Part shown: piece by piece, positions 4,287 through 28,709 of the stretch
How the letters are laid out: each line of letters begins with the position of its first letter
How positions within the stretch are numbered: position 1 is the stretch's first letter
IMG/VR virus record: IMGVR_UViG_3300021519_000751
Span: 1 to 28,709 of that record
Length of the DNA: 28,709 nucleotides
Strand: one strand, 5' to 3'
Source: a virus
The notes under the pieces: generated by a model
The model's database searches: none
Seen by the model: the letters and a program-made list of their open reading frames with translations, nothing else
What the model was told of the DNA's origin: nothing
Translations under genes and position numbers: made by a program

Positions 4287-4360
4287 TGGAGCGGGGTAGG
4301 AGAATCGAACTCCTTTGACTAGCTTGGAAGGCTAGGACACAACCAATATGACAACCCCGC
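4287..4360 (-). tRNA. tRNA-Gly (anticodon UCC)
   Basis: A 74-nt cloverleaf on the minus strand. The acceptor stem GCGGGGT / ACCCCGC is a perfect 7 bp, followed by discriminator U and an encoded CCA. The anticodon arm is CTAGC - CTTCCAA - GCTAG, giving anticodon UCC (reads GGA, and GGN by wobble). The T arm AGGAG - TTCGATT - CTCCT is canonical; the D arm has the GG pair but one weak pair in its stem. It has its own promoter at 4424-4452. The phage's Gly-rich fibre genes use GGA and GGT heavily, which may be why a tRNA-Gly is kept (inference). Confidence 0.93.
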
Positions 4361-8150: not shown

Positions 8151-8575
8151 GATACTTCAGTCTTCCCCAATCCAAGGTCCTTTTTACTAACTATTTTAGT
8201 GCCAGCTAATGGATTTACTTTGGTTGCTGTACCTGGAAATTGATTCTCAACAATATTTCGGCATACATCATTAAGCCAATTATCAACAATATCTTCGTCA
8301 GTATTACCAACGTAGCCATGTTCAATTAGCAATTCAACAAATTCTTCATTCCAATCTAATTCAATTGATCCAAGTCTAGGATTTCTTGGATCAAAATCAA
8401 ATTTTAGTATATCAACTTTTGGTTCTGCTTTTTCAATTTTCTTTTTAACTTTTGGCTTGGGTTTACGAACTTTCTTAGGCTTAGGAAGCTCTTCTTGTAT
8501 AACAGGAGGAGCTTCGACTGCGGGCTCCTCTTTTTTCTTTTTATTGAACCAGTTGAACATACTGTATTTACTCAT
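8147..8575 (-). CDS. Protein with basic Lys/Pro linker, unknown function
   Basis: 142 residues from the ATG at 8575, which overlaps the queE stop as ATGA; an in-frame ATG at 8632 would lie deep inside queE and lacks support. Residues 1-15 are aromatic (MSKYSMFNWFNKKKK). Residues 16-60 are a Lys/Pro/Glu-rich linker (PKPKKVRKPKPKVKKK). The C-terminal about 80 residues form an acidic globular domain (LDWNEEFVELLIEHGYVG, DIVDNWLNDVCRNIV). No family is recognised. Its place between queE and the SGNH-like gene in one coupled transcript is the only functional hint. Confidence 0.68.
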   Translation of the reverse strand: MSKYSMFNWFNKKKKEEPAVEAPPVIQEELPKPKKVRKPKPKVKKKIEKAEPKVDILKFDFDPRNPRLGSIELDWNEEFVELLIEHGYVGNTDEDIVDNWLNDVCRNIVENQFPGTATKVNPLAGTKIVSKKDLGLGKTEVS

Positions 8576-9402
8576 GCTAGACTTGCATACAAGTGTATTT
8601 GGAGATTTAAAATGTGACCATTGCGAGCACAATACTTTGCAGCATACTCATGATTCTTTTGATTTTCCTTCATATCCAGCAAACCTTCTTCCCAGAAGCT
8701 GATTACTTCATCAACGGCACTGCGCTCTTCCAACGAAATATCATTCTTAGTGCTACGTATTTGCTTGCTCTTCTGAGGTTCCCTATTGTAAATGTTCATA
8801 GGACTAATGAATACTTGTCTAGCTTGTTCTGCCCAGTCTGGAATGCTACTATATGGACTATCGGGATCCGCATTCATAACAAACTTCATGCAATCAGCAC
8901 GGGCAATCATCTTAGGATTAGGCTGTAGATACTTTACAGGCTTGCCATCCTTTTCTAAACACTTAGGACTGACAACTAGTGTAACATAATCTGGAATATC
9001 CTGTACGATGGTTCCGTTGCTTTCAATCTGTACAAATGCAAACTTATGAGCGCAAGTTTCTAGAAATAGAGTTAGATTCTTCTGTAGCATTGGTTCGCCA
9101 CCTGTAACAACAAGACCAATCTTACTAGTACCCCACGAAGGAATCTCGCCGTCGAAGTAATACTTCATTACATTTTGGATACGTTCATGTACCTGCTCGG
9201 GTGTTAGCCAGTCGCCGCCATCAAAATAAGTATCACAGAAGCTACAAGCCAAATTACACTTTGCAAGACGCAGGAACACAGCAGGTTCTCCACGATATGG
9301 TCCTTCACCTTGTAGTGTATAGAAGATGCTAGTAACATATAGCTTATCACCGGCTTTATCAAAATACTTCTGGCCGACAATTTCATTTTTTCCAAACATC
9401 AT
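8572..9402 (-). CDS. queE: 7-carboxy-7-deazaguanine synthase QueE
   Basis: 276 residues. The radical SAM cluster motif C-x3-C-x2-C is CNLACSFC (C49, C53, C56), followed by the QueE-typical D-T. The substrate-side motif LQGEGPYRG (30-38), the TGGEP SAM-binding motif (100-104) and the C-terminal LQIHLYAS are family marks. QueE converts 6-carboxytetrahydropterin to CDG, the first 7-deazaguanine in the pathway. An insertion around residues 140-250 makes it somewhat longer than many bacterial QueE proteins. Two adjacent ATGs (9402, 9399) share an AAGGAA site. It follows queD and two tiny genes in the same transcript. With FolE, QueD and DpdA it forms a DNA-modification pathway. Confidence 0.93.
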   Translation of the reverse strand: MMFGKNEIVGQKYFDKAGDKLYVTSIFYTLQGEGPYRGEPAVFLRLAKCNLACSFCDTYFDGGDWLTPEQVHERIQNVMKYYFDGEIPSWGTSKIGLVVTGGEPMLQKNLTLFLETCAHKFAFVQIESNGTIVQDIPDYVTLVVSPKCLEKDGKPVKYLQPNPKMIARADCMKFVMNADPDSPYSSIPDWAEQARQVFISPMNIYNREPQKSKQIRSTKNDISLEERSAVDEVISFWEEGLLDMKENQKNHEYAAKYCARNGHILNLQIHLYASLA

Positions 9403-9408
9403 AATTCC

Positions 9409-9600
9409 TTATTGATTAAATTGATTAATAAGTGCTTTTCTTGCATCACGTTGATACTGATTATCAAATAGTAAAATAGTTTTACGCAACATTCCAACTG
9501 CTAGTAAAACTAGATCATTCTCATCATCGCACATCATAATCTGTGTTTCGATAGGCATCATCAATCGTTGTATACGCTTTTCCTGTGCTTCTTTATCCAT
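9409..9600 (-). CDS. Small protein, tandem paralogue 2
   Basis: 63 residues, all-helical in appearance. It aligns over almost its whole length with the neighbour at 9600-9782: both share IxxLMxPI, QQ/TQIMMCDD, LxLA and FDxQ blocks. The identical IMMCDD core makes gene duplication clear. The start ATG overlaps the stop of that neighbour (TAATG), and queE follows after 6 bp. The function is unknown; the pair is embedded in the 7-deazaguanine transcript. Confidence 0.72.
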   Translation of the reverse strand: MDKEAQEKRIQRLMMPIETQIMMCDDENDLVLLAVGMLRKTILLFDNQYQRDARKALINQFNQ

Positions 9601-9782
9601 TAGACCATATCCTTAAACATCTTCTTACGACCTTCAATACCAAGCTGACTATCAAAGATTTCTCTTACTCGCTGTAGCATGGCACAAGCAAGCATAAGAA
9701 CATCCTCTCTGTCATCACACATCATAATCTGTTGATCAATTGGCTGCATTAGTTCAGCCATGCGATTTTGAATATCACTCAT
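9600..9782 (-). CDS. Small protein, tandem paralogue 1
   Basis: 60 residues, helical, with the same core as its downstream neighbour (LMQPIDQQIMMCDD, then VLMLACAML and IFDSQ). The ATG at 9782 follows a GAGGAA site formed by the last codons of queD, so it is translationally tied to queD. The invariant Met-Met-Cys-Asp-Asp block could bind a metal or a partner, which is speculation. Function unknown. Confidence 0.72.
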   Translation of the reverse strand: MSDIQNRMAELMQPIDQQIMMCDDREDVLMLACAMLQRVREIFDSQLGIEGRKKMFKDMV

Positions 9783-9784
9783 TA

Positions 9785-10363
9785 TTATTCCTCATAAATT
9801 GCGCTGTTGCCAGCATGTTCAAATACTTCTGCTGACTTAAGACGTACACTCTGACCTACTGGATAACGACTACCGGTCTTCTTATATTCTTCAAGTAGAC
9901 TGTTCATGGCATCATAACACATCTTAGCAAACATTTCACAGCCTACGCCTGGAACAATACGTAGATCGCATAATGCACCAAGTTCAAAAGGTTCCTTCTT
10001 AAGATGAGGAGCAAAATCACGTTCTTTAACAGTCTTACCGCCATCAGGTGATTCGTAAATCTTAGCCTTAATGCCAGTGTTAATCTCAGCCATATTGATA
10101 AAAAAATCTAAATGTGGATCATCAGCAGCAATTACAAGAGTATGATCAAACATAGTTTCTGACCATTCCTTAAACTGCTTGAGACCACCAAAGTCAAATA
10201 CCCAATTGCGATCATCTAGTGTTTCACTCTCGAACACAAGTTTGATACCAATGCTGTATCCATGTAGTGTACTGCAATGACTATGTGTAGCACGCCACTG
10301 ACGGAAACAGCAACTAAGTCCTCGGTCTGTCCCATATGTCTTAGTTGAATAATACTTTGCCAT
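9785..10363 (-). CDS. queD: 6-carboxytetrahydropterin synthase QueD
   Basis: 192 residues, longer than E. coli QueD (about 120) because of a central insertion after DHTLVIAADDP. The zinc/active-site region reads RATHSHCSTLHGYS: Cys30 matches the catalytic Cys, and H27 or H29 plus H34 match zinc ligands, while the usual HGH is HGY. The partner DH pair (D73-H74) and the C-terminal Glu (SAEVFEHAG) are present. The DFGGLK motif is the family's DFxxLK. It should convert dihydroneopterin triphosphate from FolE to 6-carboxytetrahydropterin for QueE. Start follows AAGGAA, with TAATG overlap to the upstream gene. The HGY form appears to be a known long subfamily, so activity is likely but not certain. 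Confidence 0.88.
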   Translation of the reverse strand: MAKYYSTKTYGTDRGLSCCFRQWRATHSHCSTLHGYSIGIKLVFESETLDDRNWVFDFGGLKQFKEWSETMFDHTLVIAADDPHLDFFINMAEINTGIKAKIYESPDGGKTVKERDFAPHLKKEPFELGALCDLRIVPGVGCEMFAKMCYDAMNSLLEEYKKTGSRYPVGQSVRLKSAEVFEHAGNSAIYEE

Positions 10364-10680
10364 TATCGTGTAATTCCTTTACGTAGCATTTCCATTGTGA
10401 TAGCGTGAGCTACACGTTCCTCAAAAACTTCATTTTGACTAATGACATGTAATGAATACTCACTGCGATCCTTAACCATGTCATAATGTCTAAATTCTAG
10501 TACTGTGCCGCCATCAGCGCCGTAGATACTCAGTGTAAGACCATGACTATCTAAACTTCCGTGCCCTGCATATTTTGCACTTGCAACTACCAAAGTACTA
10601 GGATATGGATTTGCTGGCTCATCACGAGTCTCCCAAGCTTCCTTACACTTCTTCCTAAACCAATTATTAAACCACTTCAT
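10363..10680 (-). CDS. Small protein of unknown function
   Basis: 105 residues. A basic/aromatic N-terminus (MKWFNNWFRKKCKEAW) is followed by alternating strands (LTLSIYGADGGTVLEFRHYD, SEYSLHVISQ) and a final helix ending in MEMLRKGITR. The N-terminus could be a peripheral membrane or partner-binding helix. It overlaps the upstream gene as ATGA and the downstream queD as TAATG, so all three are translated together. Family not recognised. Confidence 0.7.
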   Translation of the reverse strand: MKWFNNWFRKKCKEAWETRDEPANPYPSTLVVASAKYAGHGSLDSHGLTLSIYGADGGTVLEFRHYDMVKDRSEYSLHVISQNEVFEERVAHAITMEMLRKGITR

Positions 10681-10910
10681 TCTATTCCCTCATCTTTTTC
10701 CAAATATGAAATCTTTTCACGACGCAGTGTCCTGTTACGCCGACTGCGAATCTCTGCATTTTCCCAAGTCCAACACTCGCCTGTATCATCTTGGAAGACA
10801 ACCCATAGAATATCGTTCTCAGGGCCACTCCAGATCATCCAATGCGCGATTGCTCTGCCTTTGGGAGTCATCAGCGGCATCGGAGGGTCAATCCTAACTA
10901 CGTCTGTCAT
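10677..10910 (-). CDS. Small conserved-type phage protein, unknown function
   Basis: 77 residues. The sequence runs VVRIDPPMPLMTPKG, an AIAHWMIWSGPENDILW stretch, then FQDDTGECWTWENAEIR, ending in a basic tail. From memory a protein of this form, with PPxPLxTPKG and DDTGECWTW, recurs in phages and some bacteria without assigned function. The start ATG at 10910 has a GGAG site 7 nt upstream within the end of the SET gene (17-nt overlap). Confidence 0.75.
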   Translation of the reverse strand: MTDVVRIDPPMPLMTPKGRAIAHWMIWSGPENDILWVVFQDDTGECWTWENAEIRSRRNRTLRREKISYLEKDEGIE

Positions 10911-11295
10911 TTATCTTCTCCACGGTTTGCCAGCCATCATCACATATATTACAATAGTTTAGCGTAAGTTCCTCACCTACATCAATATCCTTATTGGCAA
11001 TGTGAATATATTTTGTAGGACTGATTAGATTAGGAGTGTCGCTATGGTTAATGAATATAATAGTATCAGCATGGCGAATAAACAAATCTAATACTCTGTC
11101 ATAGCAAAAGAAATAATCTACATTCTCAATAAATGCATCATACTTGTTTCTTTCAGCAGTTTTAATATCAATCCAACCATCAATAAGTGGATCATGCCGC
11201 CAGAACACAGAACCGTTTGATATTGGTTCCTTTGCAATTAATCCCAATCCATGTATGCTACTGGATGCCACTTGTGTTCTAAATAACATAGGCAT
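10894..11295 (-). CDS. SET-domain protein (putative lysine methyltransferase)
   Basis: 133 residues, essentially one SET domain. The N-terminal motif SSIHGLGLIAKEPISNGS matches the GxG start of SET domains. FINHSDTPNL matches the N-H-S SAM/knot motif, and IDVGEELTLNYC matches the GEELTxxY catalytic Tyr motif. There is no post-SET Cys cluster except a possible C...C near the end. SET proteins methylate lysines using SAM; in a phage the target could be a host or virion protein. The gene follows folE by TAATG overlap and precedes the 77-residue gene, so it is fully embedded in the 7-deazaguanine transcript. Confidence 0.82.
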   Translation of the reverse strand: MPMLFRTQVASSSIHGLGLIAKEPISNGSVFWRHDPLIDGWIDIKTAERNKYDAFIENVDYFFCYDRVLDLFIRHADTIIFINHSDTPNLISPTKYIHIANKDIDVGEELTLNYCNICDDGWQTVEKINDRRS

Positions 11296-11978
11296 TAACG
11301 AGCATATTCCTGCTGTAGCTTGATATTGTCAAAGAATTCCTTCTTTGTGCCAGCATCAGTATTAAATGCACCCTTAAGCACTGTAGTCTGTGTCAGTGAA
11401 CTATGTGCCATAATGCCTCTGTTCTCACAGCAACCATGCGTTGCCTGTATATAAACAGCAACATTTTCACTGCCAGTAGCTTTTTGAATCTCACGAGCAA
11501 TATCATTGCAAAGCTCTTCCTGCAATGTACCACGTCGAGCACACCACTGTGCAATGCGTGTATACTTGCTAAGTCCAATCAACTTAGTAGCAGCAATGAT
11601 ACCAATGTATGCAACACCAGTAACCGGCTGATGATGATGACTGCACATGGACTTTAGCTCGCTGCGAACAACTAGCATACCAGTATATGCATCACTTCCA
11701 TCATTGGGGAAGCTTGTAGCTTCTGGAGCAGGATTATAACGTCCACTCATTACTTCATTAAAGTACATCTTAGCAAGTCGCTTTGCTGTACCTTTACTGT
11801 TTGGATCTGTTTCTCTGTCAATTACTAATGCATCTAAGACATGTTCAAATGCTTCAGTTGTCTCTTCAATTAGCCTGTCATATTCATCAAAATAGATATA
11901 CTTTGAAATATTATCTCCGGACCAATAACGGCCGCCGTCAGCTTTAATACGATTACGAATAGTTTCTGATACGCTCAT
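11295..11978 (-). CDS. folE: GTP cyclohydrolase I (FolE)
   Basis: 227 residues, normal for the family. The zinc/active-site motifs are MCSHHHQPVTG (C112, H115) and THGCCENRGI (C183 or C184), with substrate-site residues in KLIGLSKYTRI. GTP is converted to 7,8-dihydroneopterin triphosphate, the entry step for QueD. It is the first gene of a long transcript from the promoter at 12022-12050 and has a clear AAGGAA site before the ATG at 11978. The downstream genes overlap one another down to 7503. The Cys-Cys in the second motif replaces a usual Cys-Met and is a minor oddity. Confidence 0.95.
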   Translation of the reverse strand: MSVSETIRNRIKADGGRYWSGDNISKYIYFDEYDRLIEETTEAFEHVLDALVIDRETDPNSKGTAKRLAKMYFNEVMSGRYNPAPEATSFPNDGSDAYTGMLVVRSELKSMCSHHHQPVTGVAYIGIIAATKLIGLSKYTRIAQWCARRGTLQEELCNDIAREIQKATGSENVAVYIQATHGCCENRGIMAHSSLTQTTVLKGAFNTDAGTKKEFFDNIKLQQEYAR

Positions 11979-12021
11979 TTAATTTCCTTATGATCACGCA
12001 GTAGGTATTGCGATATGTTTT

Positions 12022-12050
12022 AATATAGTTTATTTAGGCCTGCACGTCAA
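12022..12050 (-). promoter_or_regulatory. Sigma70-like promoter of the folE-queD-queE transcript
   Basis: On the minus strand, TTGACG (12050-12045), a 17-bp spacer and TATATT (12027-12022). The -35 lies in the last codons of the glycosyltransferase gene (stop at 12034). The start point would be near 12015, leaving about 37 nt of leader with an AAGGAA site before folE. Confidence 0.78.
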
Positions 12051-13116
12051 TAATTGTTTCATACAACTTTGAACCACTAAAAAAGTTTCCAGTTGATGCA
12101 TCATTTAGACTTTTAATAGTACCAGGAAGGTCTACGTTGTTACTACCCATAACATTACGAATTCTTTCCATTAAACGATTCTTGTTACGCAGATAATTAT
12201 CCCAATCCTTAGTCCAATCACTGGGATACTTAAAGAATGTGTCCCACATCTCATCATAGCTAAGACGATTGGGAACCAGTGGATATGTTCCAACAATAGC
12301 ACCTTCGTATACTGAGATGCCCAGTGTTTCCTGCAAGTTGGCACTAAACACAATCTTACTTTCAGCAAGATGTGTATGATATTCATCCTTGCTTAACTGG
12401 TGATCCTGTGCCACAAACCATTCATATTCTGGCATTGATGTAGCAAGATCACGGAATATTTCCAGCTGCTTTTCAGGAGCAAGACGATGAGGGAAGATGA
12501 TCTTATCCTTCTTTGCAGTGTTAACATATGGAGCAAGTATATCATTTAGGTATTCCATTGGCCAGCCAACAATATGAATCTTACCTGGATGCCATTCTAT
12601 CATCTCATCGCTGCTTGGCTCATCAAACAAGTTCAAGCAGAACATATCAAGATGGAATTTAGTAGCAAAGAAGTTATGATCGTAGCAGTAAAACATACTG
12701 GATTCAGCATTACGAACCCATGGAGTATCACCAATCAAACGTCCTAAAAAGTCCTGGGGATCATAGCTGCCAGCGTGCCACATGCCACCTAGCTTAACTG
12801 GAATACCCAATAGTTCGCTCATATACTTTACTTGAATAACAGTTGGATTCCAAGCATCAGTGTATAAGAAGTAATCACCAGCCTTAATTTGACCACTTGC
12901 AAACATCTCAGAAATTTGCAATAGCTGTTGACTCTTATAGCTATTGGTACCGGCAAAGTTAAGGAATGCGCCGGGAGTTGTAGCCTGAGGAACATCGCCG
13001 CCACTAATAACAACAACGTCTAGACCTGCGTCTCTCATTTGCCACGGGAGATACTGCTTCCACTGTGCTGTATAACGAGTTTCAACTGCTTCGAGATCAA
13101 TAATATAAACGGTCAT
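12034..13116 (-). CDS. GT-B fold glycosyltransferase (GT4-like)
   Basis: 360 residues. The C-terminal half has the GT4-type nucleotide-sugar site: KIIFPHRLAPEKQLEIF (about 230), a strand YEWFVAQD, then SKIVFSANLQETLGISVYEG with the E-x7-E-type motif (ETLGISVYEG) and the LVPNRLSY segment. The N-terminal half begins with a Rossmann-like strand (TVYIIDLE) and a Gly-rich loop (ISGGD). It should transfer a sugar from a nucleotide donor; the acceptor cannot be read from sequence. Phage glycosyltransferases are known to modify DNA bases or to alter surfaces. It lies between the oxidoreductase genes and the folE transcript, so modified DNA is a candidate acceptor (inference). Start follows AAGGAA, with ATGA overlap to the upstream gene. 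Confidence 0.78.
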   Translation of the reverse strand: MTVYIIDLEAVETRYTAQWKQYLPWQMRDAGLDVVVISGGDVPQATTPGAFLNFAGTNSYKSQQLLQISEMFASGQIKAGDYFLYTDAWNPTVIQVKYMSELLGIPVKLGGMWHAGSYDPQDFLGRLIGDTPWVRNAESSMFYCYDHNFFATKFHLDMFCLNLFDEPSSDEMIEWHPGKIHIVGWPMEYLNDILAPYVNTAKKDKIIFPHRLAPEKQLEIFRDLATSMPEYEWFVAQDHQLSKDEYHTHLAESKIVFSANLQETLGISVYEGAIVGTYPLVPNRLSYDEMWDTFFKYPSDWTKDWDNYLRNKNRLMERIRNVMGSNNVDLPGTIKSLNDASTGNFFSGSKLYETIIDVQA

Positions 13117-13388
13117 GATGAGTATTCCTTATAATAGTTACTGGACATCCAATGTATTAAACAAATCAGTCCTTGTCCTTCTTGTTTAAATTTTACTGTA
13201 ATTATACGATAATCTTTATACTCAGGATTAATTAATATAACATAATCCTCATACATCTTCAAATTTTCTCTTTGAAATAGTAGTTTCAAACCTGACAATG
13301 TAGCATTACGATTAACCCACCCATCACCTTTACGGTTGATTAATGGAAAATCAACAGCTTCCCAATCTTCACTTAACCATGGTTCCAT
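13113..13388 (-). CDS. Small protein of unknown function
   Basis: 91 residues with many Trp/Tyr residues (EPWLSEDWEAVDFP at the start, LIHWMSSNYYKEY at the end) and two strand-like segments (YVILINPEY, YRIITVKFKQEG). No family recognised. The ATG at 13388 has an AGGTG site only a few bases beyond the U-tract of the terminator at 13402-13426, so its expression depends on read-through or on an unseen promoter. It overlaps the glycosyltransferase gene as ATGA. Confidence 0.68.
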   Translation of the reverse strand: MEPWLSEDWEAVDFPLINRKGDGWVNRNATLSGLKLLFQRENLKMYEDYVILINPEYKDYRIITVKFKQEGQGLICLIHWMSSNYYKEYSS

Positions 13389-13401
13389 AATACACCTAAA
13401 T

Positions 13402-13426
13402 AAAAAGGGCTAGTTTACACTAGCCC
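13402..13426 (-). terminator. Rho-independent terminator / possible attenuator
   Basis: On the minus strand, GGGCTAGT - GTAA - ACTAGCCC (perfect 8-bp stem, 4-nt loop) followed by TTTTTATTT. It ends the transcript containing the gene at 13455-13664. The next gene's Shine-Dalgarno follows immediately after the T-tract, with no clear promoter in between, which suggests partial read-through. Confidence 0.9.
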
Positions 13427-13454
13427 CGTAACTCGTTTCTGGCAGGAAATAGGA

Positions 13455-13664
13455 TTAGTGCTTCGTATTACGGACAAACGCCGCAGCGTCTTCTGTCCAG
13501 TTATTAACTACACGATCCCCACGACGGGCACGTTCAAACTGCCCATATGCGGTATTACGCTTATACAGATCCTTTTCGTCAAAGACGTGACCAAATTCTA
13601 CACAAAATTCACGATATGCATCGAGATCATCGAAAGTACGAGCAACGGTACGGTTCTTAATCAT
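13455..13664 (-). CDS. Small protein of unknown function
   Basis: 69 residues from the ATG at 13664 (MIKNRTVARTFDDLDAY). The frame stays open to 13718, but that extension overlaps the end of the upstream gene, and the 13664 start sits just behind that gene's TAA. The sequence is charged and helical (FDDLDAYREFCVEFGHVFDEKDL, split here in two helices) with a basic patch (QFERARRGDRVV) and an acidic end. No domain recognised. It is the last gene before a strong terminator. Confidence 0.65.
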   Translation of the reverse strand: MIKNRTVARTFDDLDAYREFCVEFGHVFDEKDLYKRNTAYGQFERARRGDRVVNNWTEDAAAFVRNTKH

Positions 13665-13665
13665 A

Positions 13666-14085
13666 TTAGAGTTCCCATTTGATGTTACAGCCATTTTCAT
13701 TATCTTCACTAATTTCAATCTCTATTGCCCTGCCAGGATAACGAGTTGTAATTACTTGATACAAGTCTTCTGCAATCATTTCGCAGCTCTTGAAGTCAAG
13801 TTGTAGTGTAGCTTCATTATAAAGCTTTGTCAACCAGCGTTTAAACTGGATGAATTCAATATCCCTATCTGAATGAAATACCTCAATGGCAACACGGAAG
13901 TGAAAAATGTGGCGATGAGGATATCCGAGGAAGCTGACATCATACTCATCGCCCGTCGCCAGCTTAGGATCATCCAAAGCGGCAGGATACTTGTGGATAC
14001 CTTCACGGGCGAAAGTTACCCAAATCATGCTCTTTCTTAGTACTGGCATACGGTCTGTTACCTTCTTTTTCTTAAAGAAACTCAT
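13666..14085 (-). CDS. T-fold, QueD/PTPS-like protein
   Basis: 139 residues. The pattern is that of a 6-pyruvoyltetrahydropterin synthase-like T-fold: an opening strand (MIWVTFAREGIHKY), a His-rich strand HRHIFHFRVAIEV, then DFKSCEMIAEDLY (position of the conserved helix) and a final strand with Glu, AIEIEISEDNENGC. It lacks the QueD Cys-x3-His-Gly-His block, so it is probably not a second QueD enzyme of the ordinary kind; it may bind pterin or a deazaguanine precursor, or it may be purely structural. The start ATG at 14085 overlaps the upstream stop (ATGA) with an AAGGA site. The fold call is a pattern judgement. Confidence 0.6.
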   Translation of the reverse strand: MSFFKKKKVTDRMPVLRKSMIWVTFAREGIHKYPAALDDPKLATGDEYDVSFLGYPHRHIFHFRVAIEVFHSDRDIEFIQFKRWLTKLYNEATLQLDFKSCEMIAEDLYQVITTRYPGRAIEIEISEDNENGCNIKWEL

Positions 14086-14414
14086 TTTGAATCCTTATGG
14101 AAATCATTATAATCTTCAATATAGTTGTCAAGCACTCGCTTAAAGTTAACAACATCGTCGTGATTGGGAATAACATCATGCCATTCAATATTACCACGAC
14201 CAATAAGGAAGCTGGTAGCCATCTTAAGCCGTTCCCAAAAATTGAGATGACCTTTATCTGACTGAAGCATGAAGTAAAGCTCTGGCTCATCAGTACCAGT
14301 TTGATCAAAATATTTTACTTGGATGATGTGTTCGGGACCATGGCATTGACAGCCAATGTAGATCTCTTCACTCTTATCAATAATCAATTTATCACCGTTA
14401 GTTAGTGTGTCCAT
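14082..14414 (-). CDS. Small conserved-type phage protein, unknown function
   Basis: 110 residues. A CQCHGPEH motif (residues about 22-29) is followed by the strand IIQVKYFDQ, an ELYFMLQSD segment and a helix with W-x-R (NFWERLKMATSFL). From memory the C-x-C-x-x-PEH start with a following ELYF strand recurs in phage proteins without assigned function; a metal site is possible. The ATG lies 6 nt after the -10 of a consensus promoter and lacks a ribosome binding site, giving a probable leaderless mRNA. Downstream overlap with the T-fold gene is ATGA. Confidence 0.75.
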   Translation of the reverse strand: MDTLTNGDKLIIDKSEEIYIGCQCHGPEHIIQVKYFDQTGTDEPELYFMLQSDKGHLNFWERLKMATSFLIGRGNIEWHDVIPNHDDVVNFKRVLDNYIEDYNDFHKDSK

Positions 14415-14420
14415 AGTGTT

Positions 14421-14449
14421 ATACTACTATAATGTTAGAGTGATGTCAA
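14421..14449 (-). promoter_or_regulatory. Sigma70-like promoter, ATG 6 nt after -10
   Basis: On the minus strand, TTGACA (14449-14444, perfect), a 17-bp spacer and TAGTAT (14426-14421, 4 of 6). The six bases AACACT separate the -10 from the ATG at 14414. The -35 overlaps the end of the upstream gene (stop at 14435). This is the third promoter in the window with this geometry. Confidence 0.65.
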
Positions 14450-14887
14450 TGAATATGTTTGAGCAAAGATGTCTTTCTTAATTACACCATAGTCATTAGG
14501 TCCATGCTTTACAATGTAGTCATTGCCAGCAGTATAATTAAGTGGTTCGCCCCAACTAGTATTGACGACACCATCATGGTCAGCTAACTTAGCCATCTTT
14601 ATAATCTTTTTGGGGGTAGCTGTACCATCACCATTATCATCATATAATCCAGCAAACTTCTCAGCAGGAATAGGATACTGCTCACCCTTTGGGCCAGTGA
14701 TGATCTTATAGCCGGTATCATACTTAACAGGACCTTCGAGGGTTTCTAGTGTCCCTGCTGTATTAGCAGTTTCATACTTTACTGGATTAGCCTTCTTATA
14801 TGTTTCAAAGGAACCAGTTTCAAACCAGCCGTCATTGATTGATTCACTTAGCATGTCAATATACTTTCTAAAGAATTTTGGATCCAT
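14435..14887 (-). CDS. Protein with duplicated PGDYG-like module
   Basis: 150 residues. Two related modules are visible: the first around residues 52-85 (GYKIITGPKGEQYPIPAEKF, then AGLYD) and the second around 118-148 (DYIVKHGPNDYGVIKKDIF, then AQTYS). Both follow Y-x-I-x-x-G-P-x-x-x-x-x-x-I-x-x-x-x-F-A-x-x-Y. The second resembles the short PGDYG-type domain found in small bacterial and phage proteins. The first 20 residues (MDPKFFRKYIDMLSES) form an amphipathic helix. The ATG at 14887 has no ribosome binding site and lies 5 nt after a late-promoter-like motif. Function unknown; a structural role is possible. Confidence 0.7.
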   Translation of the reverse strand: MDPKFFRKYIDMLSESINDGWFETGSFETYKKANPVKYETANTAGTLETLEGPVKYDTGYKIITGPKGEQYPIPAEKFAGLYDDNGDGTATPKKIIKMAKLADHDGVVNTSWGEPLNYTAGNDYIVKHGPNDYGVIKKDIFAQTYSLTSL

Positions 14888-14892
14888 GTTAA

Positions 14893-14900
14893 TATTTATT
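14893..14900 (-). promoter_or_regulatory. Candidate T4-type late promoter motif next to ATG
   Basis: AATAAATA on the minus strand matches the T4-like late core. It overlaps the TAA of the upstream gene (14896) and ends 5 nt before the ATG at 14887, so transcription would begin at the start codon. No Shine-Dalgarno is present. Short AT-rich motif, so moderate confidence only. Confidence 0.45.
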
Positions 14901-15417
14901 TTACTTCAGTATCTTTGGTATATTCATCCCAATATGTATACTTGTCATTGCTCATAAGATCATGTAGCTTATGCGTCCATACCCCGGAATTAGTTGCACC
15001 CCAAGTACGATCATCAATCTTAAGTGTTGTGTTATAGTTAAACAACTGAATAAAAGGAAGCTTAACACTGATCATTGGTACAAACTTATTAGATTCACAA
15101 AGTCCAGATTCAAGTAATCCTTCACTCTGTCTAACGTCAAGATCTAGTGTGACCCAGTATTCTGCTTCCAAACAAGGCTTAATTGTTTCTTCCCACTTAG
15201 CCCATTCTGCATAATTGTCATTGTCAATGTCTGGAAAACTTTGACTTGTGCCAAAATAGATATGTTTAACTCTATTTTGTTTTGCCTTTGCTAAGATTTC
15301 ATTTACAGGAGGTGTACCAACGACAAAAAGGGTGTACATACCATGACAAATAGTATGTTCAACTTCATACCCTGTAAAGTATACAACTGCTTGACGCTCT
15401 TCAGTGTTTAATCCCAT
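14896..15417 (-). CDS. Protein of unknown function
   Basis: 173 residues, family not recognised. The N-terminal half alternates strands and helices like an alpha/beta domain (VVYFTGYEVEHT, YTLFVVGTPP, VKHIYFGTSQSFPD). The C-terminal half carries VTLDLDVRQSE, an SVKLPFIQLFNYN strand, KIDDRTWGATNSGVW and an acidic tail. The segment WGATNSGVWTHKLHDL looks conserved in character. The start ATG at 15417 has an AGAGGA site within the end of the dehydrogenase gene (10-nt overlap). A consensus promoter lies inside that upstream gene about 75 nt before this start. It belongs to the block between DpdA and folE, so a role in base tailoring is possible but unsupported. Confidence 0.7.
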   Translation of the reverse strand: MGLNTEERQAVVYFTGYEVEHTICHGMYTLFVVGTPPVNEILAKAKQNRVKHIYFGTSQSFPDIDNDNYAEWAKWEETIKPCLEAEYWVTLDLDVRQSEGLLESGLCESNKFVPMISVKLPFIQLFNYNTTLKIDDRTWGATNSGVWTHKLHDLMSNDKYTYWDEYTKDTEVK

Positions 15418-16319
15418 ATCAAATATCCTCTGCTATAACCCACAGGACGATTTACTCCGTCTTCAAACGCCTGCTGCCATTCTGTACTACGACTATATCC
15501 CCTAGACCAAAAATTGTCAACAACTAGAATACCTTCTTCAATCCAATCCTTTGCAGTAATCATGCAGTAATGGAACATGCTAGTGCGTGGACTTGGGCAA
15601 ATAATAGTTGTGGCATTCCACAGCATTTGACTAAAGTTAGTGGTAATTAACTGTTTCTTTTCGGCAGCAAGTATCCAAATACCCCCAGGTTTCAACAGTG
15701 ACTTATCTAATACACTGCTATCATCCTTAAGATCAACAACAACTTCATACTGACCACGTGGCTCTGAATCTAACGTACATTCCATACGCCACAAATCTTT
15801 ATTACTATTTCCCACAACATGAATATCAAACTTTAATCCATGCGTAAGTATAGTTTGGTAAGCAATCCATGCTAAAAATCCACTGCCGAGTATTAGTAGT
15901 CTTGCACCATTTCCCTGTACACTACGCAACATTGGGAAAGCTTGATTGATTATGTTAATTCCACAAGCAACTGGCTCAAGGATATACTTTGGATCAGCAC
16001 TGGGTACAATTACATACTCGCCATGACGAACATTATAATAATCACTAAAAGCAGGTTCACCCCGAGTAGCAACAATATTGCCAGGTACAATACCAACGAT
16101 ATCTTTTCCAACTTCAATTACTTCCGCTAATCCTTCATGCCCCTGCATATGTATAGGCAATGGTCCAAAGTTACCCTGCATCATGTCAATGTCACTACGA
16201 CAAATACCAGTCATAATAGCTTTGACACTAATTTCATTGTCCTTATGCTGAGGCTTTTCCCAGCTTGTTTCTACAAACTTGCCATCACCTGCTGTATAAA
16301 GAATTCTATTTTTCATCAT
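15408..16319 (-). CDS. Zinc-type alcohol dehydrogenase-like (MDR) oxidoreductase
   Basis: 303 residues, shorter than the usual about 340. The catalytic-zinc motifs of medium-chain dehydrogenases are present: GICRSDIDMMQG (Cys about 40), MQGHEGLAEVIEVG (His-Glu about 60) and LEPVACGINI (Glu about 114). The nucleotide site is ARLLILGSGFLAW (GxGxxA-like). The structural-zinc lobe with four Cys is missing, which explains the short length. It would oxidise or reduce an alcohol/sugar with NAD(P). It overlaps the Gfo/Idh gene by 14 nt. Two adjacent ATGs (16319, 16316) are possible starts. MDR plus Gfo/Idh next to each other suggests a sugar-processing pair. Confidence 0.82.
   Translation of the reverse strand: MMKNRILYTAGDGKFVETSWEKPQHKDNEISVKAIMTGICRSDIDMMQGNFGPLPIHMQGHEGLAEVIEVGKDIVGIVPGNIVATRGEPAFSDYYNVRHGEYVIVPSADPKYILEPVACGINIINQAFPMLRSVQGNGARLLILGSGFLAWIAYQTILTHGLKFDIHVVGNSNKDLWRMECTLDSEPRGQYEVVVDLKDDSSVLDKSLLKPGGIWILAAEKKQLITTNFSQMLWNATTIICPSPRTSMFHYCMITAKDWIEEGILVVDNFWSRGYSRSTEWQQAFEDGVNRPVGYSRGYLIWD
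15492..15520 (-). promoter_or_regulatory. Candidate internal promoter inside the MDR gene
   Basis: On the minus strand, TTGACA (15520-15515), a 17-bp spacer and TATAGT (15497-15492). It lies in the last third of the dehydrogenase coding sequence and would transcribe the gene starting at 15417 with about 70 nt of leader. The match is as good as the intergenic promoters, but coding constraint could produce it by chance. Confidence 0.48.
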
Positions 16320-17193
16320 ATGGCCCTATCATATTGTGTATCCATAGGTCTTGTTCAAGTTGATTCTTCCACCAAGCATTGTTATCTATATTAGCATAAG
16401 CAGTTTCAATCATCTTCTTATATGCAGACTCGGGGCACAGTCCCAGACCAAATCTACGTTCAAAACTATAGAAGAATGAAATACTTTGATCATTTTGTGT
16501 CATGCTACGCCAATCAGCAACCAAATTAAAATGTAGATTATCAACTACCATTCTAATACGACAGTAGTCATCAACATCATACAAGCCATTGGGATCGACT
16601 ACTCCGTAATCAGTATCGAGTACGTGTTCCAGCTTCCAGCGTTGCTCTTTAACATAATTGGATATATTGCAATCTTGATAGTTATCAGGTTTAATCGCAG
16701 CAACCAAACTTAGTAGATGAGGCATTAAGTCTCTGCTTACACCACCAAAGCTATAATGGCTATTGGTAAACCAAGTACCTGGACCAGGAACTCGATTGTA
16801 ATTAATCCACTTTATATCAATGCTAGTGCTTTTACTAGCTAGATCTCGATAAAGTTCAATATCATCTCGATATTGATTGTTCTTAATCATCATGAATTTA
16901 GTTTCAGGGCAGGACTCAACCATAACTTCCCAGTCACGAGCCGTTCTAACACCGGGCTTTTCAATAAGCACCATTCTGCTGTGTTCTGATATGAGATAAG
17001 CTATCTGTTCATGTGTATGATTTGGAGTGCATATAAATGTTGCATCAAACATTTTATGTGCATCTATTGCTAAACCAACACTTTTAAAGTCTGCGGGCTT
17101 TATTGTATCAACTGTAACAACTTCGTGCCCAAGTTCAGTGAGCACTGTTTTGTAAAGTGCTCCAATTCCCATTCCAACGATTAAATTTTTCAT
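16306..17193 (-). CDS. Gfo/Idh/MocA-family oxidoreductase
   Basis: 295 residues. The N-terminus has a Rossmann NAD(P) site (LIVGMGIGALYKTVL, G-x-G-x-G at residues 7-11), the strand ATFICTPNHTHEQI (CTPNxxH is the family's signature) and the catalytic-type EKPG motif at VLIEKPGVR (about 80). The C-terminal part is the alpha/beta substrate domain with a HYSFGGVSRDLMPHLL segment matching the family's GGGxxxDxGxH region (here GG-x-x-R-D-x-x-P-H). These enzymes act on sugars, inositols or related compounds. The start ATG follows GAGTGAG formed by the end of dpdA, so it may be translated from the DpdA transcript as well as from the internal promoter at 17347-17375. Confidence 0.85.
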   Translation of the reverse strand: MKNLIVGMGIGALYKTVLTELGHEVVTVDTIKPADFKSVGLAIDAHKMFDATFICTPNHTHEQIAYLISEHSRMVLIEKPGVRTARDWEVMVESCPETKFMMIKNNQYRDDIELYRDLASKSTSIDIKWINYNRVPGPGTWFTNSHYSFGGVSRDLMPHLLSLVAAIKPDNYQDCNISNYVKEQRWKLEHVLDTDYGVVDPNGLYDVDDYCRIRMVVDNLHFNLVADWRSMTQNDQSISFFYSFERRFGLGLCPESAYKKMIETAYANIDNNAWWKNQLEQDLWIHNMIGPYDEK

Positions 17194-17196
17194 ATC

Positions 17197-18741
17197 TCAC
17201 TCAAACAATGAATTGTAATGTTCTGGTACAATGCTGGCAACTTTCTTTTCTTCAATGATATCAGCTACAGCTTCTTCTACAGATTGTGCAGTTGAAAGTT
17301 CAAAATGTTTATTGTGCATGGTACTAGCATTAATAGTTCTCTTGCCAGTATAACCCCGTTGCCCGATGATGTCAATCCAAAACTTACTATGTTCCTCAAT
17401 AAGATCTAAGCCACGTTGGTTACCTGCGTTCTTAATAACTTCATCAACAAGTTCACGAAAACGTATACCGGTATTCTTTTGAATTAACATACCAGGAACA
17501 ACACCAAGGTCATACTGTTCATTGGCAGTAAGCACGGAATTGATATGCATCCAAACATTATGTGCCATTTGAATAGCATAGCTGAAACTGTCCCAGCTTG
17601 TCTTACCTTCCTTGCCAATCATATTAAGATCACCAGGCTTATAACAACATACATCCTTTACGGAAATATGTTTAGATATATGGCTATCCATAAAGGTAGG
17701 GATAACACCATCATTGCGAGCCACATCTCCATACGGCCGATTGTCCGTTGCATATTTCTTGTTGTCGATCCCTGCTTCCATCCCGTAGGTCCATTTGCCG
17801 CCATGTTCAATCCTTAGTTGATCGTATACTAGTCCTTTGGCATTTGCCATGAATGGACTTGCACAATCAAAACTGATAGTAAAGTCCTCGTTATGATATT
17901 TACGAACAGCACGTTGAACATCAGTTAAAAGTGTAGCCCACTCTAACTTGCTTGTGCCAAGAAAGTGCATCCAATCATGTGTGCCTTTTTCAAGTAATCC
18001 ATCACGGATCATCTGTACAATACGTCGAAGCACCAAGTGAATGTCACACATATTCTGACCGCCCATAGCCCACCCATTAAAGTGTGTTTCTGGATACAGC
18101 TTTGGATCATTGAAGTCCTTCATTTGATTATACCAATCATCTGCTTCAGTATGATTTTCACCTTGTAGCACGTTTAGGAACTTACAACGTCCTGTGCGAT
18201 GTTTCATCCAGTATTCGTTATTGATACGAGTACCTTTTACTGCTTCTTCGTAGGTGCTAATACCAGTAGCACGAGCACCAGCAGGGCTACGAGCGACCCA
18301 AGCGGGAATATCAAGGACCATACCGTAATCCATATAAGCGTCCATCCAACGAAGAACACCATCACGTTTAGCATGAGCCTTAGGACAGTTAGGATCTCTC
18401 CAATCACCTTCCCACACCCCTTTACCAATTTGGAACCCACCTGAATCTCCAAGTACAAAACTATTAGGGTCACGATTACGAACCATTTCTTCTTTTTCTT
18501 CAGGACGCACATCTAGAATGGCATGTCCTGCAGAATACAGACACCAAGGATAATAGAAGTAACTGATATCTGGATCGAGGAAATCTAATCCTCTGATGCC
18601 ATTTTGCATTGACACAGGGATTCTACTGGCCTGCATCTTCTTCCCATACTTACAAATTTGGAAAGTATAAAAACTACTCAGTGCTGGTAAGAACACTGCG
18701 TAGTCTTTCTGTCTTAACTTCATATTATCCTGAGGTATCAT
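17197..18741 (-). CDS. dpdA: DpdA-like DNA-guanine transglycosylase
   Basis: 514 residues. Motifs of the tRNA-guanine transglycosylase fold are present: LGDSGGFQIGKG (D99-Q104, base recognition), LNVLQGENH (188-196), WAMGGQN (224-230) and TISFDCASPF, whose D292 matches the nucleophile Asp of TGT. The CxCx2C zinc motif of tRNA enzymes is not seen, and the protein is longer than TGT, as in phage and bacterial DpdA that place 7-deazaguanines in DNA. It sits 2 bp after the sliding clamp gene and in the same window as folE, queD and queE. The first ATG (18741) has no clear site; ATG at 18723 follows AGGAT and is an alternative start. No clear terminator separates it from the oxidoreductase. Confidence 0.9.
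   Translation of the reverse strand: MIPQDNMKLRQKDYAVFLPALSSFYTFQICKYGKKMQASRIPVSMQNGIRGLDFLDPDISYFYYPWCLYSAGHAILDVRPEEKEEMVRNRDPNSFVLGDSGGFQIGKGVWEGDWRDPNCPKAHAKRDGVLRWMDAYMDYGMVLDIPAWVARSPAGARATGISTYEEAVKGTRINNEYWMKHRTGRCKFLNVLQGENHTEADDWYNQMKDFNDPKLYPETHFNGWAMGGQNMCDIHLVLRRIVQMIRDGLLEKGTHDWMHFLGTSKLEWATLLTDVQRAVRKYHNEDFTISFDCASPFMANAKGLVYDQLRIEHGGKWTYGMEAGIDNKKYATDNRPYGDVARNDGVIPTFMDSHISKHISVKDVCCYKPGDLNMIGKEGKTSWDSFSYAIQMAHNVWMHINSVLTANEQYDLGVVPGMLIQKNTGIRFRELVDEVIKNAGNQRGLDLIEEHSKFWIDIIGQRGYTGKRTINASTMHNKHFELSTAQSVEEAVADIIEEKKVASIVPEHYNSLFE
17347..17375 (-). promoter_or_regulatory. Candidate internal promoter inside dpdA
   Basis: On the minus strand, TTGACA (17375-17370), a 17-bp spacer and TATACT (17352-17347). 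It lies within the last 60 codons of dpdA and would serve the oxidoreductase gene starting at 17193. Both boxes match the consensus well (6 of 6 and 5 of 6), but the location in coding sequence leaves doubt. Confidence 0.48.
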
Positions 18742-18743
18742 TT

Positions 18744-19472
18744 TTACTTGCTCTGTGCTGGTAGAATATAAGTGTACTCAATTAATCCGCTGTCAACAGT
18801 GATCTGACTTGCACCATCATCGCTGAACTTAACAACAGTATCTCCGGCAAGTGTCATGATGCTTAAGAACTTAATAATGGGCCAGCACCATCCCTTAGTT
18901 AATGTGCCAGTTACATCACTCTGAAATACAAAGTTACCAGCATGGCTGCTATGATCGCCAAAGAAAAACTTCAAATCAGTTCCATCTGTCTTTGCAATGA
19001 AAACTGTTTCTTCATTGTTAGCGTTTGCTTGGAACTTAAAACGCTGTACACTAGCAAGACTGGGCTCGATAGTAACATTCCAATTCACACCCTTAAACTT
19101 TGAAGACTTCAACTTTTCATTAATAACTTCGGATGTCATGAACCTATAGTCATTCTTAAAGTCGCCAGTGGCATTTTCAAAATGGATACTGTCTGGAACT
19201 TCTACTCCATTCTTATCCTTCTTGACTAACTCAATTATGGCATTTTCCTTGTACTCAGGAATATTCAAAATTGTGTTCAACCTAGCCAAATTTGGCATTC
19301 CAAACGTGCCATTAAAGTCAGGGTTTGGAGTCTTAAATGTTCCCTTAATTACTACACTCTTATCATCAGCAATTGCTTCAACAACAGTGCTTTTATCATC
19401 GCCGGTAATCTTTACTAATGTAATAGCAATTGGCAATGTGTGGTTAATAATATCTACTAGAAAATCTTTCAT
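18744..19472 (-). CDS. gp45: Sliding clamp, DNA polymerase processivity factor (T4 gp45-like)
   Basis: 242 residues, like T4 gp45. Clamp-type features include the opening helix MKDFLVDIINHTLPIA, strand VVEAIADDKSVVIKGTF, the loop GTFGMPNLARLNTIL and repeated acidic strands, ending VDSGLIEYTYILPAQ. I place the start at ATG 19472 because GAGGT lies 7 nt upstream; an upstream in-frame TTG at 19487 lacks a site and would put that ribosome site inside the gene. gp45 encircles DNA, tethers polymerase and, in T4, also activates late transcription. The polymerase in this window ends with a clamp-binding-type C-terminus (TFESLFD). dpdA follows immediately. Confidence 0.9.
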   Translation of the reverse strand: MKDFLVDIINHTLPIAITLVKITGDDKSTVVEAIADDKSVVIKGTFKTPNPDFNGTFGMPNLARLNTILNIPEYKENAIIELVKKDKNGVEVPDSIHFENATGDFKNDYRFMTSEVINEKLKSSKFKGVNWNVTIEPSLASVQRFKFQANANNEETVFIAKTDGTDLKFFFGDHSSHAGNFVFQSDVTGTLTKGWCWPIIKFLSIMTLAGDTVVKFSDDGASQITVDSGLIEYTYILPAQSK

Positions 19473-19495
19473 TTTTACCTCTTTCAATTTTTAGT

Positions 19496-20341
19496 TTACA
19501 ACAATTCAACATTTTTTTCAATAATTTTCGCAAGGGCGCTGCTTAATTTTATGCGAGGAATTTCTCCTGGCTTTTTACAGAGTATATAAGTCAAATGCCC
19601 AGGCTCTTTATTATTTCGAATAATTTCAAAACCTATATCTTTAAGATGATCAATCAGTTTTGATGTATTAGCTCCATAAAATCCTTTAATACTTCCATAC
19701 TGTTCTACACCCCACCATCTATCCAATGGGTTGTAATTGAACAAGTATACTCCACCTGGCATTAGTAAATTGAATACGCTTTCTGCAATGTTTTTCAAAT
19801 TTACCTCATTTTCAAACATTGTCCAGTGTAAACTATAAACTAACCCAAACATTTTCTGTGGCATTGGTGTCATATCATATTTAGAAATTTTATACTTCAT
19901 TAGTCTTTTTTCAGCAAATACAGTATTGAACTGCTGGGAAACATCTTCCAATAAAGTATTATCCCAATCTGCAATATACAATGGTTCAGCACCAACTACA
20001 CTGGGTAACAGTTTACCTGTTCCTGGAAATAAATCTAAACATGGATAATGCCAGTCGATCATAGAATCTAATATAGATCTATACTGTGATATCTCAGATT
20101 CTGGCATTTCATGTAACAAGAAGAATTTAATTCTATCCAGTCCCGATAATTCTAGTCTCTTCTCATCTAAGAATCTAGCTATATCATCTAAATTCTTTAA
20201 TTCTAATTCTAACCGTGGGATGGCAAAGCTTTTAATATTATGAATAAACTCTAATACATCCCACGGTAAATCTTCACTGTAAACCAATGATTCTAAAGCT
20301 TCACAGTACGCTATATATTTGGATAAGTTAGCAGCAGACAT
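19496..20341 (-). CDS. SAM-dependent methyltransferase (class I)
   Basis: 281 residues. The first 110 residues are a helical domain (many Leu/Glu/Arg). From about residue 112 there is a Rossmann methyltransferase: motif I LDLFPGTGKLLP, motif II strand LYIADWDN with the acidic ribose-binding residue, motif IV region GLVYSLHWTMF, and a post-motif segment LLMPGGVYLFNYNP. There is no DPPY or catalytic Cys motif, so an amino-type N6-adenine or C5-cytosine DNA methylase is not indicated. A small-molecule, protein or modified-base substrate is open. It overlaps the polymerase gene by TAATG and precedes the clamp gene by 24 bp, so it is coexpressed with replication genes. Confidence 0.78.
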   Translation of the reverse strand: MSAANLSKYIAYCEALESLVYSEDLPWDVLEFIHNIKSFAIPRLELELKNLDDIARFLDEKRLELSGLDRIKFFLLHEMPESEISQYRSILDSMIDWHYPCLDLFPGTGKLLPSVVGAEPLYIADWDNTLLEDVSQQFNTVFAEKRLMKYKISKYDMTPMPQKMFGLVYSLHWTMFENEVNLKNIAESVFNLLMPGGVYLFNYNPLDRWWGVEQYGSIKGFYGANTSKLIDHLKDIGFEIIRNNKEPGHLTYILCKKPGEIPRIKLSSALAKIIEKNVELL

Positions 20342-27317: not shown

Positions 27318-28709
27318 TCATTTTGGAACTCCCGACTTAGCAATACTTGTTAGTATAGTTGCTACCTTAGGAAACGCTGAATCTTCATACTTGATGCCAA
27401 TTCCGCCTGCTGCTTTCCACTTGTTGATGTTTGTACCAAAGTCATCAACTAGGATACTGGCCACGCCATTGTGTTGAGCACGTTCCGCTTTATTGTGCGT
27501 TAACACTACTTCTGCAGGAGGCATATCGGCAAAATGCTTGTTGATCCAAGCAATCTTGCCAGGCTTACTACGTCCATCACCAGCTAACGGTGTTGAACAA
27601 ATTCGATATTCACCATATTTTTCAATTACTGTTTTTACTAATGCCCTTGCATTGGGCAACAAAGGAAGATCAATCCAAAATGTTGGATGATCTCTTACTA
27701 ACTGCAATGCTTGTTCAACATTGCCGATATCTTTATAATGACTTACACCTGATATCTTAGACCAATCGCCAAAGAAATCAGCAAGTACACCATCCATGTC
27801 TAGATAGACAAGTGGCTTTGCACTTTCATCTTCTGTTATACTTTCACTTACAGCATTCATTGCTACCCAAGCTGGTCCACGATACCCATTGGGAAATTGA
27901 GCAAAGTGCTGTATAGTACGATGCCATCCTTCAATCAATTCAAATCCTTGAGGAGTCATCTTGCCGATCACAGGCTCTTTGCGAACACCGCCTTGTTGTT
28001 GAGCAAGTGCTGCTTGTGTGGCATGTCGTTCAGCATCCTTAGGAACATTCATTGGATTAGCACTGCCGCCTGCTCTGATATTAATGCGACGCTGAGTATC
28101 AGGATGTAGCTTTTCCATCTTAAATTCAAAGTTAGGAATAAGCTTCCATTGTGTTTGTGCTGACATACCTTCGCCAGCTAAACTCCTATCAACAACTTCT
28201 TTAGGATGTTCAGGTGGGTTGTGTTCCTTAGCAGTTAGCCCTCTGTAAAGCCAATCACGCAGTACATACTCTGGCCAAGTTGGTAGATAACTCTTGAGCC
28301 AGTTCAATGCACCTTCTCTTGTTTCAGTCAAGTCATAAAACTTACTATCAATTTCCTTTTTAAGATCAGCAATTGCTTCATCTTCGCTGCGGCCCTTAGC
28401 AATCAATGTCTTTAACGCACCGTCAATAATAGTTTTTGGCTTCTTAGGCTTCTTCTCTTCGATGACACTTTCCTGTGCTACTCTTTTGAACGTATACCCT
28501 TTATCACCATTAGCAAATCCAGAATCAATTAACTTATATTCTGGGAGATAACGACCAATATTCTTTGCGATCATATCATATAACTTGATACGTCCTGCGT
28601 CTGATGATTTTCCACTGAAACTTATATAAGGTGGCTTACGTTTAGCAACAAACTGCTTGACAATAGAACCTACAGTGGCAAACACACGGAAGTCATCGCC
28701 CTTGCCAGT
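27318..28709 (-). CDS. Multidomain protein with C-terminal HAD 5'-nucleotidase (5' partial)
   Basis: The frame is open to the window edge; GTG at 28685 is in frame but the preceding codons continue the same sequence, so the gene probably starts outside. Numbering below starts at that GTG. Residues 1-70: an unknown alpha/beta module. Residues 78-160: helical linker. Residues 165-280: a module with a ParB-like core (GFELIEGWHRTIQHF, then GPAWVAM). Residues 290-455: a HAD phosphatase close to deoxyribonucleotidases, with motif I YLDMDGVLADF (D296, D298), a CST loop near 365, Lys about 399 and motif IV LVDDFGTN (D414, D415). Acidic Ser-Glu-rich spacers (VSESITEDES) separate the modules. The HAD part should dephosphorylate nucleotides or similar. 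Confidence 0.8.
   Translation of the reverse strand, partial: TGKGDDFRVFATVGSIVKQFVAKRKPPYISFSGKSSDAGRIKLYDMIAKNIGRYLPEYKLIDSGFANGDKGYTFKRVAQESVIEEKKPKKPKTIIDGALKTLIAKGRSEDEAIADLKKEIDSKFYDLTETREGALNWLKSYLPTWPEYVLRDWLYRGLTAKEHNPPEHPKEVVDRSLAGEGMSAQTQWKLIPNFEFKMEKLHPDTQRRINIRAGGSANPMNVPKDAERHATQAALAQQQGGVRKEPVIGKMTPQGFELIEGWHRTIQHFAQFPNGYRGPAWVAMNAVSESITEDESAKPLVYLDMDGVLADFFGDWSKISGVSHYKDIGNVEQALQLVRDHPTFWIDLPLLPNARALVKTVIEKYGEYRICSTPLAGDGRSKPGKIAWINKHFADMPPAEVVLTHNKAERAQHNGVASILVDDFGTNINKWKAAGGIGIKYEDSAFPKVATILTSIAKSGVPK

Follow-up and report, generated by a model that had tools for sequence, protein, structure and literature searches.

A possible QueC-independent cassette for 7-deazaguanine hypermodification of DNA in large tailed phages

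Phage DNA that contains deazaguanine bases is shielded from restriction, and it is established chemistry that enzymes of the FolE, QueD and QueE families make 7-carboxy-7-deazaguanine (CDG) from GTP. Here, we describe a gene cassette of this kind on a virus fragment of 28,709 bases, which constitutes the entire IMG/VR record IMGVR_UViG_3300021519_000751 and is referred to as the window in the following. Its closest described counterparts include the DpdA- or DpdA2-based preQ0 systems known from the phages 9g, CAjan and nt-1, in which FolE, QueD and QueE likewise occur together with a transglycosylase inserting deazaguanine into DNA; the DNA of nt-1, e.g., carries dPreQ0 (Hutinet 2019, PMC6884629). 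Whereas these phages use QueC or Gat-QueC and form dPreQ0 or dG+ as product, the window cassette is QueC-less and features a second protein of the QueD fold, termed c3, as well as a glycosyltransferase. The addition of a sugar to a base in DNA, as proposed below, has a parallel in the glucosylated hydroxymethylcytosine DNA of T4-type phages, where, however, the modified base is a pyrimidine and other enzymes are involved. We regard the cassette as a variant within the family of known systems for deazaguanine in DNA, its new elements being the probable replacement of QueC and the glycosyltransferase.

The initial annotation, made from the window alone, had recognized FolE, QueD, QueE and DpdA genes in 8572-18741 and had proposed a 7-deazaguanine DNA-modification system lacking QueC within the window. 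Analysis by Pfam, PHROG and motifs confirmed FolE, QueD-like, QueE and DpdA-type genes as members of one minus-strand operon, the gene content of the cassette supports the modification system as such, and no QueC was detected in the 28.7 kb. The same span also holds c3, the glycosyltransferase, a further protein named c2 and a pair of oxidoreductases, all of which had been left unnamed. The cassette comprises the following features:

8572..9402, minus strand: QueE, CDG synthase (PF04055, E 2.3e-7; PHROG 2076, QueE-like, E 1.3e-49)
9785..10363, minus strand: QueD-like CPH4 synthase, phage variant (PTPS PF01242, E 1e-13; PHROG QueD-like, E 8.7e-34)
11295..11978, minus strand: FolE, GTP cyclohydrolase I (PF01227, E 2.6e-39; metal motif present)
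12034..13116, minus strand: GT4-like (GT-B type) glycosyltransferase, 360 amino acids (EX7E motif)
13666..14085, minus strand: c3, putative QueD-fold paralogue without the QueD catalytic residues (fold match)
14896..15417, minus strand: c2, 173 amino acids, near-universal partner (also in Paride and ACP17)
15408..16319, minus strand: MDR-type dehydrogenase, candidate sugar-tailoring enzyme (PF08240, E 8.6e-9; Paride 0168, E 2.2e-76)
16306..17193, minus strand: Gfo/Idh/MocA oxidoreductase, candidate sugar-tailoring enzyme (PF01408, E 1e-7; Paride homologue, E 5.5e-50)
17197..18741, minus strand: DpdA-type guanine transglycosylase, 514 amino acids (motifs of the tRNA-guanine transglycosylase (TGT) type; remote homology to phage DpdA-like proteins)

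All cassette genes lie on the minus strand with intergenic gaps of -53 to +66 bases, and they belong to a single tightly packed row reaching from a polymerase gene to QueE (22986 down to 8572). The order in this row is polymerase, possible methyltransferase, clamp-like protein, DpdA, Gfo/Idh/MocA oxidoreductase, MDR dehydrogenase, c2, a PGDYG protein, a 110-amino-acid open reading frame (ORF), c3, two ORFs of 87 and 91 amino acids, glycosyltransferase, FolE, a SET-domain protein, two small ORFs, QueD, two further small ORFs and QueE. QueE has the radical SAM motif CX3CX2C at residues 49-56. According to the alignment with E. coli QueD, the protein encoded at 9785-10363 keeps the catalytic residues C30, D73-H74 and E182, but retains only the middle histidine of the zinc triad (His16/31/33 in E. 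coli), two of the three being changed. Because of these changes, which are shared with the QueD of QueC-bearing phages, we refer to it as QueD-like. The same variant occurs in the phages RHEph04, R7M and phiSM, which bear QueC and have no c3, so that the window QueD should be able to work alone.

Since the window is the complete record and no further genome is left to search, the QueC question had to be decided in relatives. Scanning with the DpdA sequence yielded matches in at least 599 viral loci, 80 of which were kept for comparison; all ORFs were clustered and partners were counted in loci with enough flanking sequence. Always on the same strand, we found c2 in 64/66, c3 in 55/55, the glycosyltransferase in 49/50, FolE in 30/38 and QueE in 33/35 loci, and c2, c3 and the glycosyltransferase were jointly present in 48 of 50. 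Among isolates, the window-type DpdA matches only jumbo phages, i.e., the Paride/PA5oct group, Phosso and the Vibrio phage 2.275.O. As conserved gene order inside a single virus group says little by itself, other lineages were examined as well. In Acidovorax phage ACP17, one block (gp119-gp126) likewise contains QueD, FolE, c2, a DpdA-like protein, the glycosyltransferase, c3 and QueE and no QueC, but its DpdA-like protein is of the phi-Grn1_0234 type and the MocA/MDR pair is not part of the block. The glycosyltransferase, a DpdA-like protein, c3, FolE and QueE are also found together in X1 (Xanthomonas) and BUCT-ZZ01 (Synechococcus).

At E <= 1, no QueC was found in the whole genomes of Paride (287 kb), Phosso (469 kb), ACP17 (156 kb), phiST and RHph_I1_18, nor in those of Ahp1, Bakedbeans, BUCT-ZZ01 and MA9V-3. 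Long relatives from metagenomes, e.g., G013 (357 kb), lacked it as well. The option that QueC simply lies out of view, which the initial annotation had offered, is therefore not supported, given that Paride, Phosso and ACP17 possess the cassette. For QueF, nothing above the cut-off was seen in the c3 phages; where checked, the weak matches fall on FolE, which has a related fold. Furthermore, c3 was present in 11/11 phages sampled through c3 and in 0/7 sampled for carrying QueC or Gat-QueC, a comparison showing non-overlap and not a rate, as both sets were picked by those genes. Taken together, the pathway quite probably does not use QueC. The suggestion that the final base need not derive from preQ0 and may be new is supported.

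The AlphaFold model of c3 is confident (pLDDT 87), and within the PDB it agrees best with E. coli QueD and further 6-pyruvoyl-tetrahydropterin synthases (Foldseek against 4ntk: E 5.8e-5, probability 1.00, TM 0.62/0.71; structural match to QueD: Z 10.9, root-mean-square deviation 2.7 over 109 residues). In a profile alignment, H31, H57, H59 and E127 of c3 pair with H16, H31, H33 and E110 of E. coli QueD, while the conserved positions include no counterpart of the catalytic Cys27 or the Asp70-His71 dyad; H71, R74, E77 and S100-C101-E102 are invariant residues specific to c3. This pattern suggests that c3 is a paralogue of QueD which has a metal-binding site and a pocket of the purine or pterin type, and which would perform a different chemistry.

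A homologue of c3 was also detected in Cellulophaga phage phiST (tblastn E 1e-7; E 1.5e-22 with a hidden Markov model built from c3 loci alone), where it adjoins MazG, FolE, QueE and QueD. Like the window, phiST features FolE, QueD, QueE and the c3 homologue, with no QueC in its whole genome; unlike the window, it lacks both c2 and a glycosyltransferase of the cassette family, and its candidate transglycosylase is a different one. Work by Cui et al. from 2023 reportedly found 2'-deoxy-7-deazaguanine in phiST DNA and is said to have proposed a CDG decarboxylase, DpdL. The c3 homologue of phiST (CGPG_00067) may be the DpdL gene. If c3 is indeed DpdL, decarboxylation of CDG would explain why QueC is not needed. 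Considering the fold, the altered active site, the occurrence in QueC-less phages and the homology to the phiST gene, it appears rather likely that c3 acts on CDG or its base; a role as DpdL-like CDG decarboxylase is a slightly less than even prospect.

The transglycosylase of the window gave zero matches in sequence searches of Pfam, PHROG or PDB. However, it displays a TGT-type motif series consisting of DSGGFQ (99-104), FLNVLQG (188-194), GGQN, HFLGTS and FDCASP (291-296), in which D292 occupies the TGT nucleophile position and is the candidate nucleophile. It is remotely homologous to phi-Grn1_0234 (E 1.6e-5) and to its DpdA-like counterparts in ACP17, X1 and BUCT-ZZ01 (hhalign 87%, E 3.7e-6), and it aligns weakly with E. 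coli TGT (E 0.0016), whereas DpdA of phage 9g fails to align. The three counterparts from ACP17, X1 and BUCT-ZZ01 belong to the phi-Grn1 type (E 1e-45), distinct from that of the window. The gene for phi-Grn1_0234 sits between FolE and QueF/QueC genes, and its product is probably the equivalent of nt-1 DpdA2. From this homology, we infer that the window DpdA would exchange guanine in DNA for a deazaguanine. A phosphoribosyltransferase gene (c8, e.g., L041 7484-8041) was observed in 37/41 loci with adequate flanks and not in the window; homologues occur in Paride (0120), BUCT-ZZ01 and phiST. By its size it had been considered a second QueD, which was rejected once it turned out to be a phosphoribosyltransferase, and it could recycle the guanine released by DpdA.

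In the glycosyltransferase, the EX7E motif (E263-E271), a mark of GT4-like retaining enzymes, is invariant in 18 sequences, and homologues are annotated as glycosyltransferase in Phosso and PAC2. Its gene is linked to DpdA and c3 in ACP17, X1, BUCT-ZZ01 and Paride and to c3 in Phosso, a linkage that spans two DpdA types (ACP17/X1/BUCT-ZZ01 versus Paride/Phosso). The trio of MocA, MDR and c2 recurs in Paride as operon 0167-0169, about 27 kb from dpdA. For c2 itself, the model (pLDDT 87) gave no significant fold match, the best reaching Z 7.1 and B. subtilis QueE Z 6.0. Upstream of dpdA, relatives carry genes for a cytidylyltransferase (35/55), a PMM-like protein (32/55) and an epimerase (25/55). 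Based on this linkage, the sugar-nucleotide genes and the MocA/MDR pair may supply the sugar for a decorated deazaguanine.

A row of genes observed in Xanthomonas phage PhiXhv-12 (L135 6705-10791) comprises Gat-QueC (PF06508, E 2.3e-49), a PIG-L GlcNAc de-N-acetylase, a glycosyltransferase belonging to the cassette family (E 6.5e-23) and a Gfo/Idh/MocA protein (PF01408). As in the window, a deazaguanine gene is accompanied by a Gfo/Idh/MocA protein and by a glycosyltransferase from the same family, but the row differs in the use of Gat-QueC, the presence of the deacetylase and the absence of c3. The cluster is a possible glycosylated archaeosine system.

On this basis, we propose with even confidence that the window holds a cassette with which a large tailed phage hypermodifies its DNA with 7-deazaguanine independently of QueC; gene content, conservation, the absence of QueC from whole genomes of relatives and the fold of c3 were observed, while every reaction is inferred. 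By homology, FolE, the phage QueD variant and QueE would make CDG from GTP. In place of QueC, c3 would then act on CDG, most likely by removing the carboxyl group to give 7-deazaguanine, and the DpdA-type transglycosylase would swap guanine in DNA for the resulting base. To this, the GT4-like enzyme would attach a sugar, which in this genome the Gfo/Idh/MocA and MDR proteins may make or tailor, as their linkage suggests, and the phage DNA would be protected from host nucleases. That the glycosyltransferase decorates the modified base is about evenly balanced; that the DNA carries a QueC-independent glycosylated 7-deazaguanine with an unusual sugar, perhaps as a C-glycoside at C7, is our tentative prediction, held with somewhat less than even confidence. 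We know of no report of a sugar-bearing 7-deazaguanine in DNA, and the literature searched yielded no paper on phage DNA with glycosylated deazaguanine.

Several points weigh against this proposal. After plain decarboxylation, the glycosyltransferase would find no obvious acceptor group (hydroxyl, amine or carboxyl) other than N2 or C7, and the c3 step or the glycosyltransferase step may therefore be misread: either the glycosyltransferase acts on the CDG carboxyl, N2 or C7, or else c3 performs a chemistry other than decarboxylation. The link between c3, DpdL and the phiST nucleoside is tentative, and the family assignment of the glycosyltransferase is weak by Pfam, as PF00534 was matched in 9/18 relatives (best E 7e-4) and by the window member with E 0.2, below the cut-off. 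In Phosso, dpdA lies far from the block of c3 and glycosyltransferase, and synteny among close relatives is in any case not independent evidence. The phages compared for c3 and QueC had been chosen for one gene or the other, and the c3 carrier Vibrio D479 has a partial QueC match (E 6.4e-9). Finally, DNA rather than tRNA as the target of DpdA is a prediction from homology. A glycosyltransferase acting elsewhere, e.g., on the host envelope or virion glycans, with CDG itself or plain 7-deazaguanine as the inserted base, would suit the six c3 phages without it (phiST, RHph_I1_18, Ahp1, Bakedbeans, D479 and MA9V-3), in which the c3 pathway is thus independent of this enzyme, and phages often carry unrelated glycosyltransferases. 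We nevertheless regard it as unlikely, because the gene stands next to or very near dpdA or c3 in 49/50 loci. The same holds for five lineages of isolates, which comprise two DpdA types, and in a sixth lineage the gene adjoins Gat-QueC.

Three further explanations concern the source of the base and its destination. Many hosts have QueC, and DpdA of phage 9g alone put dPreQ0 into E. coli plasmid DNA (PMC6884629), so that a host QueC might supply preQ0 or ADG, with dPreQ0 or dADG as the final base and c3 serving either as another QueD or as an accessory QueD subunit; c3 possesses the zinc histidines partly lost in the window QueD, which makes a joint enzyme conceivable. Yet host-supplied preQ0 would render the phage FolE, QueD and QueE redundant, c3 was found in none of the seven QueC-bearing phages, and the same QueD variant manages without it in RHEph04, R7M and phiSM, which makes a joint enzyme unlikely and this explanation as a whole improbable. 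Quite improbable, too, is a QueC, ordinary or a divergent PP-loop enzyme, in the unsequenced remainder of this genome. The record is a fragment, and Vibrio phage 2.275.O, whose DpdA is of the same subfamily, encodes a true QueC (E 1.7e-51) beside dpdA as well as QueF; however, 2.275.O has neither c3 nor the cassette glycosyltransferase, and complete relatives with both have no QueC. Some other relatives show weak PP-loop matches only, tens of kb from dpdA. The PP-loop proteins of L081, L083, L084 and L085, with a C-terminal CWWC or CFWC, score around the QueC cut-off (21.9 against 22 in L084) and adjoin radical SAM-like proteins, but they sit outside the dpdA cassette among other genes; by eye, the QueC-like matches in L081-L085 and X1 were rejected as other PP-loop or divergent proteins. 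A queuosine-like modification of tRNA by the cassette would fit the remote homology of DpdA to E. coli TGT, but is hardly credible, as dpdA is flanked by a replication clamp and sugar genes and related phage enzymes are DNA-directed (PMC6884629). Moreover, none of 18 DpdA members (window and 17 relatives) matched the Pfam TGT family even at E 1, which, by family profile and not by a tree, places them outside the tRNA transglycosylases and agrees with the DNA-directed role assigned initially.

The proposed cassette would join deazaguanine chemistry to glycosylation and replace the QueC step, and there is a fair chance that its sugar-bearing base has not been described before. If true, it could represent a new class of hypermodified purine, giving a concrete prediction for the DNA of existing phages, e.g., Paride and ACP17. 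The phage group is abundant in metagenomes (at least 599 relatives), and its cultured members include Paride, which infects the laboratory strain PAO1.

Apart from the cassette genes, the row contains the following neighbours:

10894-11295, minus strand: SET-domain protein between QueD and FolE (PF00856, E 1.8e-10)
18744..19487, minus strand: clamp-like protein directly upstream of dpdA (55/55 loci; Phosso homologue annotated as sliding clamp)
19496-20341, minus strand: possible class I methyltransferase, 281 amino acids (by eye; no Pfam match; 9/81 loci)
20341..22986, minus strand: family B DNA polymerase, start of the syntenic block (PF00136, E 6.9e-36; PHROG 262, E 7.5e-200)

The SET-domain protein is unusual for a phage operon, and no relative of it was found among the 80 loci. 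The cassettes of two close relatives contain ORFs of about 940 amino acids at different positions (L001 ~10660-13580, L003 ~8780-11730), which are possibly mobile inserts. Elsewhere, the window carries a tRNA-Gly (tcc) gene at 4287-4360 (minus strand) and, at 27318-28685 (minus strand), encodes a protein that has a 5'-nucleotidase domain at its C-terminus (NT5C, E 3.2e-9).

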